Assembly (NCBI GenBank): GCA_011033025.1
Contig: WFMF01000342.1
Span: 1 to 64,000 of the forward strand
Source: Beroe forskalii
Taxonomy: Eukaryota > Ctenophora > Nuda > Beroida > Beroidae
Direction: 5' to 3'
Length of the DNA: 64,000 bases
Under the pieces are notes generated by a model, which was not told the DNA's origin, searched no databases, and saw nothing but the letters and a program-made list of their open reading frames with translations. The translations under genes and the position numbers were made by a program. Each line of letters begins with the position of its first letter. Positions within the stretch are counted from its first letter, which is position 1. Below are positions 9,819 to 55,583 of the stretch, one piece after another.

Positions 9819-12394
9819 ATGGATTTTGATGACTATGACTCGGATGGTTTTTACAAGTACAAATACAGCAACAAAAGCGACCACAACTACCCCGACATCC
9901 TTGCTGAACTAGCGGCCGACTTCTTTCCAATCTTCGTGTACATCTTCCTGATGATACTGGTCGGTTTCCTCTCGGGTCGGTTGAGCATTCTCCCCACCGG
10001 ACGGGGGCGGTCTGTCCTGGCATCCCTGCTCTTCAACATAGCCCTCCCTGCAGGTATCTTCCTCAACATGATCACCATCAAAGTGACCAGTCTCAAGGAC
10101 TCCAAGTGTCTCTATGTCTTCGTGGGTTGCATCATGATAGTCAAGTCTATTCTCTACGTGTTAGTACTGGGCGTGGGGCTGATTATAGTTAGGAAATCTA
10201 CCCTGAGCTGGGCTATAGTCTCTCTGTTCGCCCTGGCAACAGTCCACTCTAACGACTACGGGATAGGGCAGTCCATGCTCCATGTACTGTATGACAACGC
10301 AACCATCATACCCGCTCGACACTTTCCCATGTACATGGACGCTTCCATCCAACTGTCCTACGTTACCTTCATCCCCCTGTCCCTGTTCCTCATGGAAGTG
10401 AAGAGACACAGGGACCTGTCTCTGAAGTGGGGTAAGAGTATCTGCTACGCGTTCCTCACATGCCTCCTCAGACCTATAGTTCTGTCAGCCATCCTCGGGA
10501 TATGCTTCAGGTTTGCGCTGGGAGTCGACAATGACACTGAAACGTCCAAAGCTGCCGTGGGTAACTTCATGAAGTGGCTGGGAGACCGGTTCTTCATGAG
10601 TCTCATCAACACCATCCCCCCGATATACCTGATCTACACGGGCCTGGTCCTGGCAGGGAGTGTCCGGCAGTTCATCTCACCCCGCGAAGTGATGGCCATT
10701 TCAGCTGTTACCATCCTCAAGCTAGGCTTCTCACCCCTCATGATGAAGTTTGTTAACCACAAATTCCTCCCGGCCCCACCTATGTGCAATACCACCAACA
10801 CTAACACCAGTCTACCGGTCATGCTGAATCTCTACGGCACCTTGCCCACATCCCCCATAGTTGTCATTATTGCTGCCCAATACGATCTCCTGCCCCAGAT
10901 ATTTTCATTGATAGTGCTCATGACAACACTAGCATTCGCACCCATAGCAACCTTCTTCCTTTCCCTTAGCTACCTGGACAAAGCAGAGTTATTCAGCCAG
11001 GAGACAGCTAGAGTTATGGACACTGTTACTAAGGGCACTGGGTATGCTACACTGGCACTATCAATCTGGGTGCTGATTGTGCTGTTCTTTCTAAAGAAGT
11101 ACAGGAAAGTCCTGTACTTGTTGCTCCTTGGTCAGATCCTGTGCTTGGCAGCGTATGGTACCCTCACTGGTGCCGTACAAATAGAGGATATAAAGGATGA
11201 CATGTGGAGGAAATCGGTGGCGTTTGGCAAGGCAGTGGCGTGCTGTTTGTTCAGCATGTTGGGTTGCACCTACATCCTCACACTCGGCATTGTAGATAGA
11301 GGCACCCAGCACATGATCAGGGTTATCAACTCTGTCAAGGCGTGGGTCTGGTATATCGTGATGTTGTTAGTGATACCTGTGGGTTTACTAGCCATCACCG
11401 CACTGTCTCCATCACTCTCTCAGACGCCACAACCTAACGATTTTATGTGGGACCTATGTAATAATATTGCCGACCAATTCGTGGCTGTCAAGATATCAAT
11501 ACTGGTGGTAGCACTGATACTTTATACGCTGCCAATGTTTTTCAACTGCTGTTCAGGAGAAAGGGTGAGGCGGACACTGACCAGACTCAGGTATGAGCCT
11601 ATCTTGGAGGAAACGTCCGAAGCTGAACTGTCGACAGCCATGCGGGATTACCACAGGACTAAGATGGGTCGGAACCCCTTGGACCAGGAAACTAGTGACC
11701 GGTGGGAGCTGAGCAGGGGGAATTTTCTGAGGTTTCAGGCTGCGGGGATCATGACCATTATCATGTCCATGGTGACACTTCTAGTGGAAGCCTGGAGTCT
11801 CTGCCTCAAACAAGCGAGTGACAAGTCCGGCTTTGCGGGTCTGGTCGTGTTGTACCAGAACTTGTGGCTGTTCGTGGGACTGGGCATGGCTGTGATATTC
11901 GGTACGCCAGTCACCGAACTACGACAACAGTTGGTCCGAGTGAAGGACGCGATTATGGAGAAGATAGTCCGTGAGGGCAGCGAAGTAAACCTACCCCAGG
12001 TGGAGTGTCTGCCCCCCGAAACGGTGCTGACCTGTCAGCGCTTCGTCAAGTACCACCTGACGGCGTGTATCAGTGCTATCGGCAAGTCTATCGAGGGCAC
12101 GTTCGGGAACTCCTACGACAATGTCTTCACGGGGAGGACCTGGTCACGTGGCTGATTAACGTGGGTCTTGCGGAGGACAGGAGCGAGGGGGAGGAGTACG
12201 GGGCCCGGCTGGTGCTGGGCAGGGTCGTGGCACACATAGACAGGAGGAAACTCTTCTACGATCGGGACTATTTGTATCGTTTTGTGAAGGTGAACATTCC
12301 AACTAGAGACGGGGTGGACAGTATGAGTTCTAGTGCGCTAAGGGACGAGTTTCATGTGTCTAATACCACCAGGGCTATGCCAGATTGGTTCTAA
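9819..12394 (+). CDS. GPR155: GPR155/LYCHOS-like membrane protein with DEP domain, one frame break
   Basis: Single coding exon; ATG in a strong CACCATGG context. About 858 residues after allowing for one break, close to vertebrate GPR155 (about 870). GPR155/LYCHOS is a lysosomal protein fusing a PIN-type transporter fold to a GPCR-like helix bundle and a C-terminal DEP domain, and signals cholesterol to mTORC1. Visible here: an acidic N-terminus, about ten hydrophobic spans to residue 400 with the PIN-like segment LYGTLPTSPIVVIIAAQYD, further spans to about residue 715, then the DEP domain (TCQRFVKYH, then EDLVTWLINVGLAEDRSEG, then DYLYRFV). Within DEP, at GGGG 12131-12134, the frame is broken: the first frame stops at 12155 while the domain continues one base out of phase. 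One G looks missing from a five-G run. The last codons and stop belong to the first unit of the downstream 31-bp minisatellite. Confidence 0.9.
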
Positions 12395-13323
12395 TTCTAC
12401 CAGGGCTATACCAGACTGGTTCTAATACTACCAGGGCTATGCCAGACTGGTTCTAATACTACCAGGGCTATGCCAGACTGGTTTTAATACTACCAGGGCT
12501 ATGCCAGACTGGTTCTAATACTACCAGGGCTATGCCAGACTGGTTCTAATACTACCAGGGCTATGCCAGACTGGTTCTAATACTACCAGGGCTATGCCAG
12601 ACTGGTTCTAATACTACCAGGGCTATGCCAGACTGGTTCTAATACTACCAGGGCTAGGCCCGACTGGTTCTAAGACTATCAGGGCTATGCCAGACTGGTT
12701 CTAATACTACCAGGGCTATGCCAGACTGGTTTTAAGACTACCAGGGCTATGTCAGTCTGGTTCTTATACTACCAGGGCTATGCCAGACTGGTTCTAATAC
12801 TACCAGGGCTATGCCAGACTGGTTCTAATACTACCAGGGCTATGCCAGACTGGTTCTAGTACTACCAGGGCTATGTCAGACTGGTTCTAATACTACCAGG
12901 GCCATGCCAGACTGGTTTTAAGACTACCAGGGCTATGCCAGTCTGGTTCTAATACTACCAGGGCCATGCCAGACTGGTTCTTATACTACCATGGCTATGC
13001 CAGACTGGTTCTAATACTACCAGGCTATGCCAGACTGGTTCTTATACTACCAGGGCTATGCCAGACTGGTTCTTATACTACCAGGGCTATGCCAGACTGG
13101 TTCTAATACTACCAGGGCTATGCCAAACTGGTTCTTATACTACCAGGGCTAGGCCATACTGGTTATAATACTACCTGGGCTATGCCATACTGGTTCGAGT
13201 ACTGCCTGAGCTATGCCGGGCCGGTTCTTAGACTACTAAGGCTATGCTAGACTGGTTCTAAGACTACCTAGGCTATGCCAGACTGGTTCTAATACTACCA
13301 GGGCTATGTAAGACTGGTTCTGA
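12364..13323. repeat. 31-bp minisatellite beginning in the 3' end of the GPR155-like CDS
   Basis: About 31 head-to-tail copies of a 31-bp unit whose core is CAGGGCTATGCCAGACTGGT. Unit 1 supplies the last residues (TTRAMPDWF) and the TAA stop at 12392-12394. Later units carry scattered substitutions (TATGCC to AGGCC or TATGTC) and a few 1-base losses, with more divergence towards the 3' end. The array would be transcribed as the start of the 3' UTR unless cleavage is immediate. Confidence 0.95.
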
Positions 13324-16274
13324 TCCATGTAAGGATATAACAAGAGATTTGTTTTCAATTTCAATGATATGACAAATAGAAGTAGAAGTTTCTCAGATTC
13401 AACATAGAAATGTTCATACTTCAATGATGAATGAATGCACAGCGACTTGAGAGTTTCAGAAATTACGTATTATGGTACATTATGCAATGTTTAATGGTAT
13501 CGTGAATAACTATGTTCTATATTCAGTGAATCATGTTCGTTATTCAATATTCAGTAAGGTTAAATTCAATGCACTAATATCATGAGTTACATTGGATTGA
13601 AAATGTGATCATTGATCACGACTAAACTCCAGTATACGATAAATTTCAATATATGATAGGTTTTTCAATCCCTGCTTATACCACTATGACCATGAAGTCA
13701 AACCGGAGTACCAATTTCACAGTGAAGTGTAAGGGGAGAAAATGACAGGTGGAGACGGGATCGTTTAAGACTTGATTGTTCATGATAATTATCCTATTCT
13801 ATTTCTATGTCACTTGACACATATTTATCTTGAAATTTTGTCTTAACAAAAAGTAACAAGGCGTTTGTCTGTCGTTTGAGTGTTTTGGAACTGAATTCAT
13901 CCAAACAAAGCTGCTAAAACAATGCAACTCGTAGCGCCTTTGTGTCTACCGTCGCCCTTCTGGCCCTTCAGGACCACCCCGAACGTCAAGTTTTATATCT
14001 GGCACCTGTCACTTTGCTTTGACACTTTCCAACTTTGAAACGATTCGTTCAGTATCTCTCATTCTTGTGTGCATTGGACATTGGTTGAGTGTTGTGTGCT
14101 GAGACACGATGTCAGATGAACTGGAGCACGTCAGTCAGGTTCCAGCCAGGCACAAGGTATTGGGTTATCCCGGGAGGTGGGGTTTATGTCATTGTATTAG
14201 AATTACTCATGAAACGACTGAATCTATTGCCCAAAATTTTGTGTTTTTTCATAATTAATGGCAATGGCATGTTTTCTATTGCTTTGACCAAGAGTTTAGT
14301 ATCGAAACTATAGGGGTGTCATTTATACTAAGTTTGTTGACCATGTGTCTTTTCAACATAATGAGTTGTGAAACATGAGCTCTTGGAACAATCAGTAAAA
14401 ATGTACAATATGACGTAAAATCAGCCGAAAAAAGCTTTGTTAGGAGGAAAAGCACGCTGGTAAGTCGTAACTTGATAATCACATCAATCTAAAATAAAGA
14501 GCCTCGAAAACATCTGCGTGCACCTTTAGAAACTCCGTATTACGATATTAAAATGACGATATAAGATATCAATCTTATCAGACTTAGAATCAGCAACGTA
14601 TCTTAACATAGTTTTCACCTCCTGTTGGGCTCCTAATTGATTGTGAGTGAGCTATAAATGGCTCCTATCTCTCGACTGGTACCCGCTCTGCTTGTCCTAA
14701 GTCTTTGTCTCAAGTATTGAAATTAGTAAAGACTTGATGCGGCACCAGACGTAGTGACTGCAGTCGTGTACTTAGTAGTGCTTACACCGGAGCTCTCCTC
14801 TTCATTTCGAGCTGATCTTTTTCCTTATCTCATTGTAAACCAGACGACCGTACTTCTTCCACTTTCTTATCGCGCTATATATGGGGGTCAGGGAACGCTT
14901 CAAACGGGTAAGATTTCACCGTTATTTCAATCGTTCGACACAAAATGATAGTGTTATTGATAAACTTGAAAAAACTTATATTACATTGCCGAACAGTATT
15001 TTTGCTAATGTCAATTGCCATGAAAATTACCATGAAAAAACTTTTCGAGTCAAAGTTGTATGAATATTGCATGTAGTAACTAGGAAATCTTCACATAAAA
15101 TAGTGTCTTATCGGGTCATTTGCCTCTTTGAGACATTTGAGGAGACAAGGTCCTATTTCCCACAATAGGATCTTGTCACCAGCAAATTATGACACCACAA
15201 CTTTCACGGTTGACAGAAAATATAGAAACGGCAAGAATTAAAAAGTCCAATTGTTAGAACCCAGGACAAATTTCTATCAGTCGGCAGGGACCACTCATGA
15301 GCAGTATGAGTAACATGTTCCACATTGATGACACAAGGCTTAGGGCCGAGTATCACTTGACATACCATTCAGAACATGATGTCAAAGTTATGCATTGCAT
15401 TCGACATATCGCTCCAAGAATGCCTTTAATCTTAAAAGCTTCAGGTGACAGCCATTACTATCACTGAAAGCATGTTTTGAATCTTATGCATCATTCGAAA
15501 TACCACTCAAAGCATCCTGAACGTCAAATACGTCAAGTTGAAGTTGACTCATTTGACGTTCAGGAGCTCAAAGTGGCATCAAAATAGCTCAAAGTCAAAG
15601 GTGGTCAAGCAACTGCATCGTTGTTCATCAATCAATAGAAAAACGCTCAAAAGTGCTCACTCCTGAGCAGTTTGGCGCAGACGTTATCAAAATATGTTAC
15701 TTGCAATTGACTTACAATGACTTTCGCGCAAAGCTACGCCTGCATGAGCAGTACTGGTGCGAGTTTTTCAATCGATCAGTTCAATCGATCGATGGACAAT
15801 GATGCTACCGCCTGACAATATTGTACAGATGAAGTCAACTCAGTGGAATTCCAGTACCACATGGGAACTGTTGGAAGTCATTGTTAATCTCACGATGACA
15901 TTATACGCAGAGAGCAAGTAATTGGTGTAAAAGAGTGATGTCATTATTTTGGTTTTGATGTGCGAATTGATGACGTCACGCCATCCAATTTTCGTGGGCG
16001 GGAGAAATGTGTGTGAAATATACCAATCAGCTTTTAGTTTTCATGGAATTATGTGGAGTGTACACATCGTATTGCATCACCTAGCCTGATTAGAGTTAGA
16101 CAAGCCTCATCAACTAGCGTACGTTGAGAATAATACAGATTAGTCAATCTAAACGTTCATTCAGTACCTACTCGGATAAAAATCGTGTGGCTCGGCTGTC
16201 AATTTGTTGTCAGTTCGACTTAAGTAATAGCGTTGTTTTGTGCTGTTCATCTTTGATATCTGAAGCTTAAATTG
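13324..16274. other. Intergenic stretch between the GPR155-like and ferlin genes
   Basis: No ORF with recognisable motifs on either strand. Contains a 51-bp palindrome at 15515-15565 with arms TCCTGAACGTCAAA and TTTGACGTTCAGGA. Otherwise AT-rich and unremarkable. If exon 1 of the ferlin is correctly placed at 16275, the promoter should lie near the 3' end of this stretch, but no core element stands out. Confidence 0.4.
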
Positions 16275-38300: not shown

Positions 38301-41300
38301 ATTACATCATAATACATGCATGAATAATATCCGATTGAGCAGTTAATTGCCATGGGATTTTCGCAATTTTGCAGATAAATAACCGCTAGCGAAGCTGGGG
38401 ATGAATTGATTGATTATTTCACATCCCAACGATTTATTCGCAGGAAAACTCTCGAGACCAATCATAACCATGCCTGATGCCATGAGAAACTGCCAGATTC
38501 ATTTAAAGTTGATAAACCGAATACTCTGAGCTACTAACTCTTGATTAATGATTTAAAACTGAGCTAAAGCAGTAAAGCACATACTACGATGAAAAAAATT
38601 AGAACTCTACTCGATTCCACACACGCACACACATGAAAATGATCTGCCAGTTTCTGCATGGAGGCATCGGCTAATTTCCGCTAGGAAGCACGGGCGATGC
38701 TATGTCTCCAACTAATGGGAGCTTCTTAGGAACGGAAGAACCCCAGGACGACCCAAAGAACACCATCTCCAAACTGTCAAGGAAGGAAACAAGGAAACTC
38801 AAACAGGTGCGTAGTAGTATGTATGAGCATTATGCATGCCTTGATTCATGACATTATAAAGCTGCTGCTGGATTGTTTTTGAATTGATTGAGCATGAGTC
38901 AATGCAGAAAACTAAAAACTATGCTAAAAGATGCCCCGTTTTTCCATTCCTGTAGGGTGAAGAAGAGAAGGAACCTCATCCTGATGACATCCTGGTGTCA
39001 GATTGGTGGAGCAAGTACTACCATGCCCTCGGTAAAGACCCAAGACTTGAGAGGGTCTTCAAGGAAAGGGGCTTACCTACTCTCAAGGTAAACTGGTGAC
39101 CCACATATAAATTTAGAACTTTCACCGTCGTGGAATGTGGATGTTTTCTTGTAATTGTGTAAAAGATCGCAGCAGTGTCAGAATGCCATCTCTATGCATC
39201 GTCTTTGAAACATCAACTGTAACTTCTCCTCAGATGTATGACGAAGAGTTGGAAAAAGCCCACGGTAGATTCAGGGATATCATGGAGGTGGTAAAGTTAC
39301 AGAGACCAGACAACGAACTGAGCAGTGACTTCGAGGAGGACTCAGACGATGAAGATGCTCATGTCGGACTTTTCAAGGTAAGTTTTTATAAAATCAGATA
39401 TCTCAGTTTTCAGAGCAATCAGTGATCTTGATTAGAAAATGCTTCAAGCATCCAGGTTTAAAAATAGTAACCATGAATCGCTCATTTGTGTTCACCATCA
39501 CTAAACTCGCAATCCCTCAAGGGCTCATTCAAGATATACCCGATCACAGAAGAGATGCACAAAAGAGCGGAGATCGAGCCTCCAGAACTCATGTTCCAGA
39601 ACCTTCCGTCCAACACGCCTCAGGATGTCATCGTCAGGATCTACATCATTTCGGTACGTTGAATGAAAAATGAGAATCTAGAGTATTTAAAAGAAATTTT
39701 GCTCTGTTTGTCAGGAAAGAACCTGATCTCGGTGTACCATTGCTTTACAGCGATCTCCCTACCTTCTCACGACTCTAACAATTCCAGGGAATGAACCTAA
39801 CACCGCTGGATTTCGGAGGCAGTGTGGACCCTTATCTGTGGATTAGGTGTGGAAAAACCATCATAGACGACAAAGCAAACTACATGACCAGACAGATCAA
39901 TCCTGAATTTGGAAGGTAGGAACTGATCATCTCTAGAAATCAAGTAAAAATCCTAAAATGCACATAGCACAATTTAGCTTGTTCATTGTACAACAATTTG
40001 CCAAATTGTCAGGACAGTAATGCCGGGATTTTTCCATTTTCTAACCCCGGTTCTCTCTCTAATCCAGGATGTTCGAGTTCAGATGCTCCCTCCCCCGTGA
40101 CAGTCAGCTCCAAGTCAGAGTCATGGACCACGACCTGATAGGAGCTAATGATTTGGTGGGCAGCACCACTATAGATCTGGAGGACAGATTCCTGTCCTGG
40201 AGACACGCCTCTTGCGGGGTAGCCACCCAATACATCGTGTGAGTAGCCACCCAATACATCGTGTGAGTAGCCACCCAATACATCGTGTGAGTAGCCACCC
40301 AATACATCGTGTGAGAAGCCACCCAATACATCGTGTGAGTAGCCACCCAATACATCGTGTGAGTAGCCACCCAATACATCGTGTGAGTAGCCACCCAATA
40401 CATCGTGTGAGTAGCCACCCAATACATCGTGTGAGTAGCCACCCAATACATCGTGTGAGTGTAGTGACAGATGGCGAGAAACCTCTTGACGAATAATTTT
40501 CTAGCTGAATGGCTGATGACACTGTTTATACAGCTCACTAGCAGATCCACCTAATGACTTTGTATTGACAGAGCAGTGATCATAAAATTAAAGTAAATTA
40601 TTGCATAATGCCAATGATCCTGAGTTTCCCAAGAAAGGTCGCTCGAAATCTCGCTTATACACATTAATGATAGGCTTGTCACATATAATTATAAATCAGA
40701 TGTTCGATGTGATCACTTGATCAGTTTAGACACATTTTAATTGCCAAGCTGCACAGATGCAAGAAATTATAAATTTAATAGATTTAATAGTGTGTACAGT
40801 AGAAGCAGACAGTTATTAACTTTCATACTAGTCTTGATGTTGTTAATCTATTACGAAACTAAGTGGAATGGCGGACAAATGAATGGCCACAGAAATGGTA
40901 GAAAAGGCCCAATTCATTAATATGGAACTTTTATATATCTTCAACTACACCTCACTCCAGGGACAAGGAAAACAAGGACCTGTGGAGAGACACAACAAAA
41001 CCTATCAGCTTGTTAAAGACCATCTGTGTTCTGAAAGGATGGAAACCGCCCACTTTCAAAGGGAAAGGATCGACTCTGCGCCTCTATGTCAATGGATCAG
41101 AGTACAAGATGAAGTTCTTCGGTAATTAGTATACGGCCACTCTGCAACGATAACACCCACTTTAGCCGTAAGAAGCAAAAGGGGCGCTGGTGGTGCAGTT
41201 AATAACAGGCAAAATCGAATCATCTGGTCATTCATCAATTTCATTAACAACACATTTGAAAGTTTTCAAAATCAACGTTCATTCTAGACAAAATTGCCGT

Positions 41301-49024: not shown

Positions 49025-50225
49025 TGGAACATGGCACAATTGCGCCATTTTGGCACCATGGCGCCAAAAATACTAACTTTTGATAGGAAGGTCGTAGAGA
49101 CTCCATTTTTAGCTTAAAAGAACCGCAATGGCCATGTTTATATACGACTTGTTAATAAACATATGCCCTAAAACGCTCACAAACCGAGTTATGGGCGAAA
49201 AACTGTTTTTAGCCCATACGCGGGCTTGAAATCGGCGATTTTCTTAACTCGGGCCAGGAAGGTCATAGAAACTCCATTTTGTATTTAAAAAGAATCGCAA
49301 TGGCCATGTTTATATACGACTTGTTAATAAACATATGCCCTAAAACGCTCACAAACCGAGTTATGGGCGAAAAACTGTTTTTAGCCCATATGCGGGCTTG
49401 AAATCGGCGATTTTCTTAACTCGGGTCAGGAAGGTCATAGAAACTCCATTTTTAGCTTAAAAGAATCGCAATGGCCATGTTTATATACGACTTGTTAATA
49501 AACATATGCCCTAAACCGCTCACAAACCGAGTTATGGGCGAAAAACTGTTTTTAGCCCATACGCGGGCTTGAAATCGGCGATTTTCTTAACTTGGGTCAG
49601 GAAGGTCATAGAAACTCCAATTTTAGCTTAAAAGAATCGCAATGGCCATGTTTATGTACGACTTGTTAATAAACATATGCCCTAAAACGCTCACAAACCG
49701 AGTTATGGGCGAAAAACTGGTTTTAGCCCATACGCGGGCTTAAAATCGGCGATTTTCTTAACTCGGGTCAGGAAGGTCATAGAAACTCCATTTTTAGCTT
49801 AAAAGAATCGCAATGGCCATGTTTATATACGACTTGTTAATAAACATATGCCCTAAAACGCTCACAAACCGAGTTATGGGCGAAAAACTGTTTTTAGCCC
49901 ATATGCGGGCTTGAAATCGGCGATTTTCTTAACTCGGGTCAGGAAGGTTGTAAAAACTCCATTATTTTTTAGCTTAAAAGAATCGCAATGGCCATGTTTA
50001 TATACGACTTGTTAATAAACATATGCCCTAAAACGCTCACAAACCGAGTTATGGGCGAAAAACTGTTTTTAGCCCATATGCGGACTTGAAATCGGCGATT
50101 TTCTTAACTCGGGTCAGGAAGGTCGTAGAAACTCCATTTTTAGCTTAAAAGAATCGCAATGGCCATGTTTATATACGACTTGTTAATTAACATATGTCCT
50201 TAAAGGCTCACAAACCGAGTAATGA
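49025..50225 (+). repeat. Tandem array of a 171-bp unit, left arm
   Basis: Seven copies, judged from GAGTTATGGGCGAAAAACTG recurring near 49186, 49358, 49529, 49700, 49871 and 50046, with a diverged last copy near 50216. Spacing is 170-175 bases. Each unit also has CGCAATGGCCATGTTTATAT and an AACTCGGGTCAGGAAGGTC block. Copies are over 95 percent alike by eye except the innermost. Confidence 0.92.
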
Positions 50226-50491
50226 GGAAAACACTCCTTTTTGCCCACACCCAGGCTTGAAATCATCATCAAAAAGTAATAATTTGTAAAGGGATATTTG
50301 GAGGGTTCAAACAATTTTCTAATATCAGGGAAGTCATAAACTTGAATTATTTGAAAATGATGTAAAGTAAATATTGAAGCATGCTTATATTGACACATGG
50401 AAAAAGTCACTATAATGATATTATAGTATTATGTTACTACATAATCTGTATCTAAGAATGATAAGTGTCCTCGCACTCCATCCATAGAATG

Positions 50492-52990: not shown

Positions 52991-53179
52991 AATGACTTTT
53001 TCCATGTGTCAATATAAGCATGCTTCAATATTTACTTTACATCATTTTCAAATACTTCAAGTTTATGACTTCCCTGATATTAGAAAATTGTTTGAACCCT
53101 CCAAATATCCCTTTACAAATTATTACTTTTGAGTTTTGATGATGATTTCAAGCCTGGGTGTGGGCAAAAAGCATTTTTT

Positions 53180-53790
53180 GCTCATTACTCGGTTTGTGAG
53201 CGTTTAAGGACATATATTGATTAACAAGTCGTATATAAACATGGCCATTGCGATTCTTTTAAGCTAAAAATGGAGTTTCTGACCTTCCTGACCCGAGTTA
53301 AGAAAATCGCTGATTTCAAGCCCGCATATGGGCTAAAAACAGTTTTTCGCCCATAACTCGGTTTGTGAGCGTTTTAGGGCATATGTTTATTAACAAGTCG
53401 TATATAAACATGGCCATTGCGATTCTTTTAAGCTAAAAATGGAGTTTCTATGACCTTCCTGACCCGAGTTAAGAAAATCGCCGATTTCAAGCCCGCATAT
53501 GGGCTAAAAACAGTTTTTCGCCCATAACTCGGTTTGTGAGCGTTTTAGGGCATATGTTTATTAACAAGTCGTATATAAACATGGCCATTGCGATTCTTTT
53601 AAGCTAAAAATGGAGTTTCTATGACCTTCCTGACCCGAGTTAAGAAAATCGCCGATTTCAAGCCCGTGTATGGGCTAAAAACAGTTTTTCGCCCATAACT
53701 CGGTTTGTGAGCGTTTTAGGGCAAATGTTTATTAACAAGTCGTATATAAACATGGCCATTGCGGTTCTTTTAAGCTAAATATGGAGTCTC
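53180..53790 (-). repeat. Tandem array of a 171-bp unit, right arm (inverted)
   Basis: Four inverted copies of the same unit, with starts near 53187, 53356, 53526 and 53697. The innermost copy is again the most diverged, mirroring the left arm. Array length therefore differs between arms (7 against 4). Confidence 0.92.
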
Positions 53791-54492
53791 TACGACCTTC
53801 CTATCAAAAGTTAGTATTTTCGGCGCCATGGCGCCAAAATGGCGCAATTGCGCCATGTTCCTACCTAACAAATTGGGTCTCTTCGGATTTTCAATCAGGA
53901 GGCCTAAAACAACATCTCTGAACCGGTCATTATTTTGTTTCAAGACGTTGCAGACCTCGGCCCTTTTTTTTGCTTTAACTGACTATTAGATAATTCAACA
54001 TAATAATAACGGTGGTAATTGATATTTACCATATGCATTAAATTCAATCATTTTATTCGGCCCATCGTTTAATTGGCGTTGTAGCGCAGAATCCAATTGG
54101 CTGAATCCATTAATCCAATAGAAACAATGGAATCATGAATCATGTCGTTTGAAAATCCAACGCACGTATACCAGACATAACTTTGGACAGGATGGATTCA
54201 ATGGAGCCAATAAAGAAGTACAACTTTTAGTTTTACAACTCTTGAACTTTTTACCTTAAATTACTCTTGATGGATCATACGTTTTGAGCTCAGCAGCGCC
54301 ATTAGTGTAGCTCTATGAAAAGCACGTATTCACAAACCCACAAACTCCGTGAGCCTTTATTATTAACAAACAGTGTGTTAAAAGTAATGTCCTTTTCCCA
54401 CTCTTAACACATAGCCACGGTTTGTTGACTTTTAAAAGAGTATTTGCTGTTACACTTCAGTTCATGTTTTGATTTTAGCCTTCCACCTTCGT

Positions 54493-55341
54493 GAGAAATC
54501 CATCCGCACCGAGGGAGTAGGGAAAAACATCTATTTTTCCATCTTGTAATAAATTGTAGCTCATAGCGAGCAGTTTGCTGGTATGTGAGTAAGTGATATG
54601 TGAATAAGTGGTAGTGAGTAAATGATTGGAACTAGTGACTTGGCAATAATGAAAACACGGCAATGTGGTGTAATTGGTTACTTTTCGAGAGGTTTTCTCG
54701 GAATTTCAGAGGGTACCGAATCTCAATGACATGGGATATAAAGTTTAATGTTATATATGAGTTCATGAATATTACTATAGAGTAGCTAGCCAATGTTGGG
54801 TAGGCCTTCTCATAGGAATTTTACATAATAACAAACAACTTTGAAGGGGAGGAAAGTTCTAAATTGTGGCGAACAGGCAACCACGCCCAGTGCCCACTTT
54901 AAATTGATTAATTGGGCACTGAGAAATCCATCCGCACCGAGGGAGTAGGGAAAAACATCTATTTTTCCATCTTGTAATAAATTGTAGCTCATAGCGAGCA
55001 GTTTGCTGGTATGTGAGTAAGTGATATGTGAATAAGTGGTAGTGAGTAAATGATTGGAACTAGTGACTTGGCAATAATGAAAACACGGCAATGTGGTGTA
55101 ATTGGTTACTTTTCGAGAGGTTTTCTCGGAATTTCAGAGGGTACCGAATCTCAATGACATGGGATATAAAGTTTAATGTTATATATGAGTTCATGAATAT
55201 TACTATAGAGTAGCTAGCCAATGTTGGGTAGGCCTTCTCATAGGAATTTTACATAATAACAAACAACTTTGAAGGGGAGGAAAGTTCTAAATTGTGGCGA
55301 ACAGGCAACCACGCCCAGTGCCCACTTTAAATTGATTAATT
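54493..55341. repeat. Direct duplication, 428-bp period, two copies
   Basis: Two nearly identical copies of a roughly 421-base segment start at 54493 and 54921, each from GAGAAATCCATCCGCACC to AAATTGATTAATTG, separated by GGGCACT. I saw no differences by eye over most of the length, so the duplication is recent, or an assembly repeat. Non-coding as far as I can tell. Confidence 0.88.
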
Positions 55342-55583
55342 GATGCGCAGATGGTAGGACAAAACCCCACCCGGACAAAACCCCACCCGGACATAACCCC
55401 ACCTTAGAGCACAAATTGCGCGATGGGAACGTTCGTGCGAACCATACGTCCTAACCCTAACCGTAACCATTGCGTCACAGGATAGGCACGAGCGTCCCTT
55501 TCGCGCAATTTGTGCTCTAAGGTGGGGTTATGTCCGGGTGGGGTTTTGTCCGGGTGGGGTTTTGTCCGCGCACCGATGCGCAT
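55342..55583. mobile_element. Foldback element with GGACAAAACCCCACCC repeats
   Basis: Inverted arms of about 80 bases. The left arm has GGACAAAACCCCACCC twice, then GGACATAACCCCACC and TTAGAGCACAAATTGCGCG; the right arm is the inverse. The outer ends are GATGCGCA / TGCGCATC-like. The loop (about 55425-55495) contains CCTAACCCTAACCGTAACC, which resembles a telomere-like word but is only two to three units. Confidence 0.75.

Follow-up and report, generated by a model that had tools for sequence, protein, structure and literature searches.

Ten tandem splice donors at a ferlin exon end in the ctenophore Beroe forskalii: a probable mirage and its likes elsewhere in the genome

Introduction

In the ctenophore Beroe forskalii, one exon of a ferlin gene is followed by ten near-identical 5' splice sites in a row, which raises the question of how such a gene can still yield a whole protein and how the copies came to be there. 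The window analysed is a stretch of 64,000 nucleotides (assembly GCA_011033025.1, contig WFMF01000342.1, positions 1 to 64,000), and positions given without a C label refer to it. Competition between neighbouring donors is familiar from alternative tandem donors (GYNGYN), which lie a few bases apart; the array described here differs from these in its 24-nt spacing, its ten copies and their single origin by duplication.

Tandem repeats that cross exon-intron boundaries have been described in lancelets under the name of mirages. As far as the consulted parts of PMC3087553 go, they occur in Adh3 and globin (BflGb6/BflGb9) genes, lie at both boundaries and are unstable in length, and RT-PCR suggests that they leave regular splicing unaffected. 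The consulted part of PMC3902484 adds troponin C and PGBD5.

Results

The array-bearing gene is very probably a ferlin and appears to read intact. Stop-to-stop frames and the gene model gave consistent frames across 44 modelled exons (Table 1). A 469-aa piece translated from them matched myoferlin in the PDB (E 1.4e-87) and also dysferlin and otoferlin, and Pfam recognised C2 (two stretches), dsrm_Ferlin and Ferlin_C in the C-terminal 576 aa, in agreement with the identity proposed by a first-pass annotation of this DNA. The model was built by dynamic programming with a codon table from obvious exons, the array-bearing exon included; the junction itself was not used. Its weak points are a few short predicted exons that are doubtful and an unsettled 5' end, with the array-bearing exon now placed 34th of 44 (earlier labelled exon 38). 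The model joins this exon to the next at 40238/40961, and across this junction GVATQYIV and the residues of the next exon align with myoferlin GIPEEYCV...TWRD. At 722 nt, against a median of 155 nt for the predicted introns of this gene, the intron is exceeded by only two of the 43. Since an in-frame TGA bars donors 2-10 in the model, the model shows the productive donor and not the donor in use.

Table 1. The ferlin array and other boundary arrays of the genome
Feature	Location	Strand	Basis or remarks
Ferlin gene, 44 predicted exons, open through C-terminal membrane segment	27894..43798	+	gene model, PDB, Pfam
Exon with amplified end, 171 nt, ends ATC GT, phase 2	40068..40238	+	sequence, gene model
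Tandem array, 10 x 24 bp GTAGCCACCCAATACATCGTGTGA	40219..40458	+	about 20 nt exon end and 4 nt intron start per unit
Array-holding intron, 722 nt	40239..40960	+	gene model
Donor 1, GTGAGT, only donor predicted to keep the protein	40239..40244	+	sequence, gene model, single-donor paralogue intron
In-frame TGA, met from donors 2-10 or on intron retention	40240..40242	+	sequence, frame from gene model
Variant donor 4, GTGAGA, weaker U1 pairing	40311..40316	+	TRF, pairing energy, 9-mer list
Following exon, begins with G completing Val (GT + G)	40961..41121	+	gene model, PDB alignment
Citrate synthase donor array	C110		PDB E 2.4e-27; 46-bp unit, 8.9 copies
NEK-like kinase donor array	C248		PDB NEK1 E 9.4e-11; 25 copies
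Fifth octamer-array locus	C248:410701-414700		at least 61 copies of NEK exon-end unit, ~10 kb past NEK array
Piezo-like gene donor array	C209		weak upstream-exon match, 17.5 bits vs cut-off 28.8
Second donor array, upstream at the same locus	C209		56 bp x 5.0; TRF
WWE-like exon donor array	C67		18.2 bits vs cut-off 21.1
Ferlin arrays	C201		donor arrays 68 bp x 9.9 and 22 bp x 3.0; acceptor array 45 bp x 4.0
Ferlin arrays	C814		acceptor arrays 67 bp x 6.4 and 20 bp x 3.7
Array in coding-looking stretch	C495		read by open frame alone; acceptor array 40 bp x 4.9
Sushi exon donor array	C386		Pfam above cut-off
IQ-motif exon array	C3:325001-326900		Pfam above cut-off; first junction AAAG/TTAACGG, no clean donor
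Coiled-coil-like exon donor array	C358		no Pfam match

The array itself proved highly uniform. TRF scored 10.1 copies at 99% match over 40219-40460, the periodicity continuing past the end of the tenth unit at 40458. The sole difference among the units is a change from T to A at 40316 (one in 240 bp), and the 9-mers at the ten donors comprise nine copies of CGTGTGAGT and one of CGTGTGAGA. Each unit ends in the junction CGT/GTGAGT except at donor 4, which reads GTGAGA; the sequence, TRF and the 9-mers thus bear out the ten 24-bp donor copies and the single exception described in the first-pass annotation. Ten near-identical 24-mers are not attributable to chance. The repeat unit spans the exon-intron boundary, as in a boundary minisatellite, and in silico the authentic boundary lies at the exon-side edge of the array with the coding sequence intact, as in a mirage. 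The assembly holds no second allele of the locus, its three matches being the locus itself, a ferlin paralogue and an unrelated array. L011, considered as a related array, was dropped as an unrelated 23-bp minisatellite.

The intron is in phase 2 (ATC GT, then G), and the unspliced reading is ATC GTG TGA. Donors 2-10 and intron retention all lead to the same TGA directly after the native Val, with no residue added. Judged by this frame, a whole protein would be possible from donor 1 (40238/40239) alone. The earlier view that only the first donor is productive therefore agrees with the gene model; the accompanying claim that the other donors add VATQYIV and a stop is right about the stop and wrong about the added residues. 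The product of donors 2-10 is predicted to end at residue 1681 of 2,113, without most of dsrm_Ferlin and all of Ferlin_C and its membrane segment. The second C2 stretch, for which the Pfam output gives no position, probably also falls within the lost part. Any phase-2 intron with a GTRAGT donor necessarily has such a stop at intron bases 2-4.

Local features explain no choice of donor 1, because eight other donors equal it locally: its sequence, U1 pairing and predicted accessibility are those of donors 2, 3 and 5-10. All donors have the same 20 nt upstream, and they are alike downstream except for the donor 4 variant and the last copy. The genome contains ten matches to U1 genes, and the one examined starts with the usual ATACTTACCTG. 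The calculated energy of pairing with U1 is lowest in strength at donor 4 (-4.5 kcal/mol); the common array donor reaches -7.2, the last donor -7.5 and the consensus -14.5, and donor 1 is the eighth weakest of the 43 predicted donors of the gene. Masking of the inner donors by RNA structure was ruled out, as predicted accessibility is alike and low throughout (0.001-0.013 unpaired at +1 to +6). The array RNA folds less stably than shuffled sequences (z +2.2).

Other ferlins in the genome (five FerB matches) place the array in time. On C495, the paralogue carries a corresponding intron, identical in place and phase (...CAA TAC ATC AG/GTTAGT), with one donor and no array, and the paralogue on C201 likewise breaks at this position (CTACGT/gttagtac). 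The ferlin intron is therefore older than the array, and because the paralogue intron carries a single donor, donor 1 is taken to be ancestral. Intron gain by tandem duplication was rejected, since an array-free paralogue shares the intron's place and phase. Repeated ferlin sequence was also seen at two other places. On C814, at 84342 and from 87616 onwards, a block of ferlin exons is tandemly duplicated, and its two FerB matches score equally and are separated by 3.35 kb. In the joined region that starts at C201:186001, the ferlin exon start GAGTACGGAAAC occurs five times, at 13488, 13665, 13821, 13997 and 14679, the last copy in a full exon; this is probably a larger acceptor mirage.

Boundary arrays recur in other genes. 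A genome search for three AGGTAAGT octamers 10-40 nt apart returned 322 places, and the 100 listed were grouped into ten array loci. Four of the ten fetched loci adjoin the end of a coding exon (C110, C248, C209 and C67); the exon at the octamer array of C209 has a weak stathmin match only. A fifth, beyond the NEK-like array, matches the NEK exon in the repeated part only, with no NEK exon beyond. No coding exon was recognised before the array at the other five. Two of these five, the arrays of C1 and C159, are preceded by long open frames built of other repeats. Read by eye, the next exon of the citrate synthase and NEK-like genes is in frame from donor 1 and the first repeat leads into a stop. 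The last array copy reads GTTAGG at the citrate synthase locus; at C209 it lacks a GT.

A sample not selected for arrays (194 kb) comprised the window and 13 further stretches, each of 10 kb, that had been retrieved because of ferlin paralogues. Minisatellites with a period of 10-100 and at least 2.8 copies occupied 52 loci in it and make up 17.4 kb, or 9%. In the acceptor arrays of Table 1 the last copy runs into the exon; a 52 bp x 9.2 array on C814, with 2 nt in the exon only, was left out of the count. A wider search with AGGTAAGT 41-70 nt apart gave 254 places, of which the 100 listed yielded eight new array loci by grouping. Five were fetched, partly for their coding-looking units: those of C386, C3 and C358 (Table 1), that of C2, which has no coding exon, and that of C35, excluded from the donor-array count. 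At the IQ-motif array of C3 one frame is open into the second copy, and donor 2 may be in use there.

The totals are at least 11 donor arrays, that of the window included, and at least four acceptor arrays whose units include 8 or more exon bases; some of the ten further donor-array exon ends were read from open frames only. Wherever the frame was read, the protein is kept only through the exon-adjoining copy (first donor or last acceptor), with C3 as a possible exception. Viability requires this outermost-site pattern, which in itself does not demonstrate a rule of splicing. The window has a further 31-bp array (x 31) at 12359-13321, which starts at the end of a coding-looking frame, GEDLVTWLINVGLAEDRS..., DEP-like by eye, and may be another boundary array.

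Are boundaries preferred sites of such growth? Arrays with a period of 10-200 and at least 2.5 copies were located within four ferlin gene spans and counted as straddling with at least 3 nt on each side of a predicted junction. Seven of 25 straddle, one of them (C814:24696) by virtue of a doubtful predicted donor, against 4.6 +- 1.8 when one unit is placed at random, not wholly exonic (P for seven or more, 0.14). The placement fits random minisatellite growth: junctions do not clearly attract arrays, nor are they cleared of them. General enrichment of donor arrays is likewise not claimed, as the comparisons of words with their reversed controls differ in direction. Triples of AGGTAAGT at 10-40 nt number 322 vs 50 for the reversed word, and at the 41-70 spacing 254 vs 102, yet array loci among the 100 places listed (to C248) are ten vs six control loci on the same contigs, with 22 control loci overall. 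Single AGGTAAGT octamers in the 194 kb number 12 vs 9, AGGTGAGT 1,093 vs 3,512 and GTGAGT pairs at 24-nt spacing 1,325 vs 1,603.

Selection on the decoy donors was not detected in five other arrays, where the donor hexamer, ranked by divergence among the windows of each array, stood at 0.39, 0.34, 0.61, 0.07 and 0.89, a comparison of low power; its conservation was neither above nor below that of the remaining unit. The five included C248:410701-414700 (L044), where no exon was found, and the ferlin array is too uniform for this test.

The make-up of the units is less even. Exon/intron lengths are 20/4, 40/6, 41/5, 50/6, 37/6, 40/9, 49/19 and 19/3 in eight donor arrays that were not picked from lists for exon-like units (although the C209b and 68-bp arrays among these eight were first noticed for such units), and 46/9, 27/9 and 70/7 in three partly picked ones. 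All 11 donor units are thus exon-heavy, with 3-19 intron bases, whereas acceptor units are mixed (20/47, 23/17, 27/18 and 8/12). For the eight arrays P is 0.003 under uniform breakpoints, 0.003 by Fisher and 0.0015 under other bounds; for all eleven it is 0.0004 (uniform breakpoints) and 0.001 (Fisher). The sample is small and rests on gene models of this analysis, and unit boundaries were read by hand with a microhomology uncertainty of up to ~6 nt. Selection does not explain this excess, because intron-heavy units should be as harmless.

Other repeats and a mitochondrial contig were recorded along the way. The window carries 171-bp satellite blocks at 49085-50264 and 53144-53802, whose consensus units appear by eye to be mutual reverse complements, and a 428-bp tandem duplication at 54492-55342 with 100% match (TRF). 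The mitochondrial contig C1134 (13,339 bp, GC 17.5%) carries COX1 and has open frames of at least 100 codons on one strand only; ARAGORN in bacterial mode found no tRNA in its first 10 kb. On this contig two open frames, at L046 4311-4691 and from 7546 onwards, share a stretch of ~50 residues, a partial duplication beside a likely URF1 after ND5.

Discussion

Our analysis indicates that the ferlin array is a mirage, one of several in this genome; it is new for the lineage within the literature searched, and not a new kind of element. What is read directly from the DNA is the array, the open gene with its frames, the ancestral position of the intron and the fact that the pattern recurs in the genome. 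Based on these observations, we consider it highly probable that the array is a boundary minisatellite born by chance. Tandem duplication of 24 bp that run from the exon end into the start of the intron would have come first, and slippage or unequal exchange would then have raised the number of copies to ten. With the outermost donor in use, all later copies would be intronic and the protein unchanged. The inner donors would be decoys whose use gives a single truncated protein, or RNA decay. The same architecture in the citrate synthase, NEK-like, WWE-like, Piezo-like, second ferlin, sushi, IQ and coiled-coil-like genes speaks for this history.

Several points stand against it. In vertebrate work, as given in the consulted part of PMC6002489, splicing prefers the intron-proximal donor where two are comparable, for a reason not known, and such a preference would ruin most ferlin mRNA. 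Donor 1 is locally equal to donors 2, 3 and 5-10, and random duplication does not predict exon-heavy donor units. The outermost site may also not always be used, because the first junction at C3 is no clean donor. Since the intron-proximal rule would leave little protein here, we infer that enhancers in the unique exon body favour donor 1 (exon definition), which would then be used in most transcripts, and that nonsense-mediated decay clears those spliced at inner donors. The array would then be nearly neutral.

Among known systems the lancelet mirages come closest. They share minisatellite-like repeats at 5' and 3' edges, splice signals within the units and an authentic site at the array edge; they differ in that the host here is a ctenophore, that arrays reach 25 copies at the donor and that the present ones are known from DNA alone. 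The variable tandem repeats at exon-intron boundaries of human segmental duplications (PMC2812944, as far as consulted) are likewise minisatellites at exon edges. Those, however, are tied to alternative splicing and the emergence of introns within duplicated genes specific to primates, whereas the ferlin intron predates its array. Dual-specific splice sites in the tandem repeats of UBC (PMC10809524, in the part consulted) also place a splice signal in a repeat, but there AGGT acts as donor and acceptor; the ferlin junction, CGT/GTGAGT, has no AGGT, and a dual-specific array was rejected for that reason. No ctenophore mirage appeared among the matches listed in the literature searched, which is not proof of absence from print, and the main text of the Beroe ovata genome paper (PMC11184263) contains none of the words 'tandem', 'minisatellite' or 'introns'.

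Four other explanations were weighed. The haplotype could be a damaging recent allele, in which inner donors are used as the intron-proximal rule (PMC6002489, as above) would have it and one animal carries a weak or null ferlin. The near absence of mutations, one change in 240 bp, would suit a young array. Against this, comparable arrays lie in the citrate synthase gene, in the NEK-like gene and in a further ferlin, and they are probably older, because their copies match at ~90-95%; we regard a damaging allele as unlikely. A helper array, in which extra intronic U1 sites strengthen exon definition at a weak donor and stay uncut, would fit the low rank of donor 1 (8th of 43, -7.2 vs -14.5 kcal/mol for the consensus). 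In the consulted part of PMC8724738, a pre-mRNA given a consensus donor at its 3' end was spliced more, and a larger fraction of the molecules carried two U1, though that donor sits beyond the next exon and not within the same intron. The 24-nt unit is shorter than the U1 footprint of 23 + 12 nt (PMC6002489, likewise in part), so neighbouring donors are probably not bound together; with inner donors that show no special conservation, we regard a helper role as rather improbable.

The first-pass annotation had also raised a noisy regulator of ferlin dose, in which inner donors divert a share of transcripts that depends on copy number into unproductive splicing, under selection. Nine extra donors, eight of them locally as strong as the first and all leading to the same early stop, would provide the means. 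Nevertheless, hexamers in five other arrays are conserved neither above nor below the rest of the unit, and arrays occur in unrelated genes such as citrate synthase, on junctions at a random-like frequency, which leaves the regulator unsupported and very unlikely. An assembly error, conceivable with one assembly only, is hardly credible for 240 bp with an internal variant and with arrays of the same kind at other loci.

A bolder proposal goes beyond chance growth: boundary arrays may be recurrent genome-wide products of a process tied to splice donors, with splicing by an outermost-site rule, the reverse of the intron-proximal one. Its basis is that the duplicated piece mostly ends just past the donor consensus and reaches 19-70 nt into the exon. 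We hold this to be doubtful, and the boundary minisatellite of chance origin remains our preferred reading.

In conclusion, mirages, named in the literature searched only in lancelets, are suggested here to occur also in an animal line very distant from these. What decides the choice among several equal 5' splice sites is given as not known in the consulted part of PMC6002489. Position is nearly the sole difference among the ferlin donors, and the array thus offers a natural test of choice among equal sites. If the outermost site is used in all array genes, exon-side position would beat intron-proximity.
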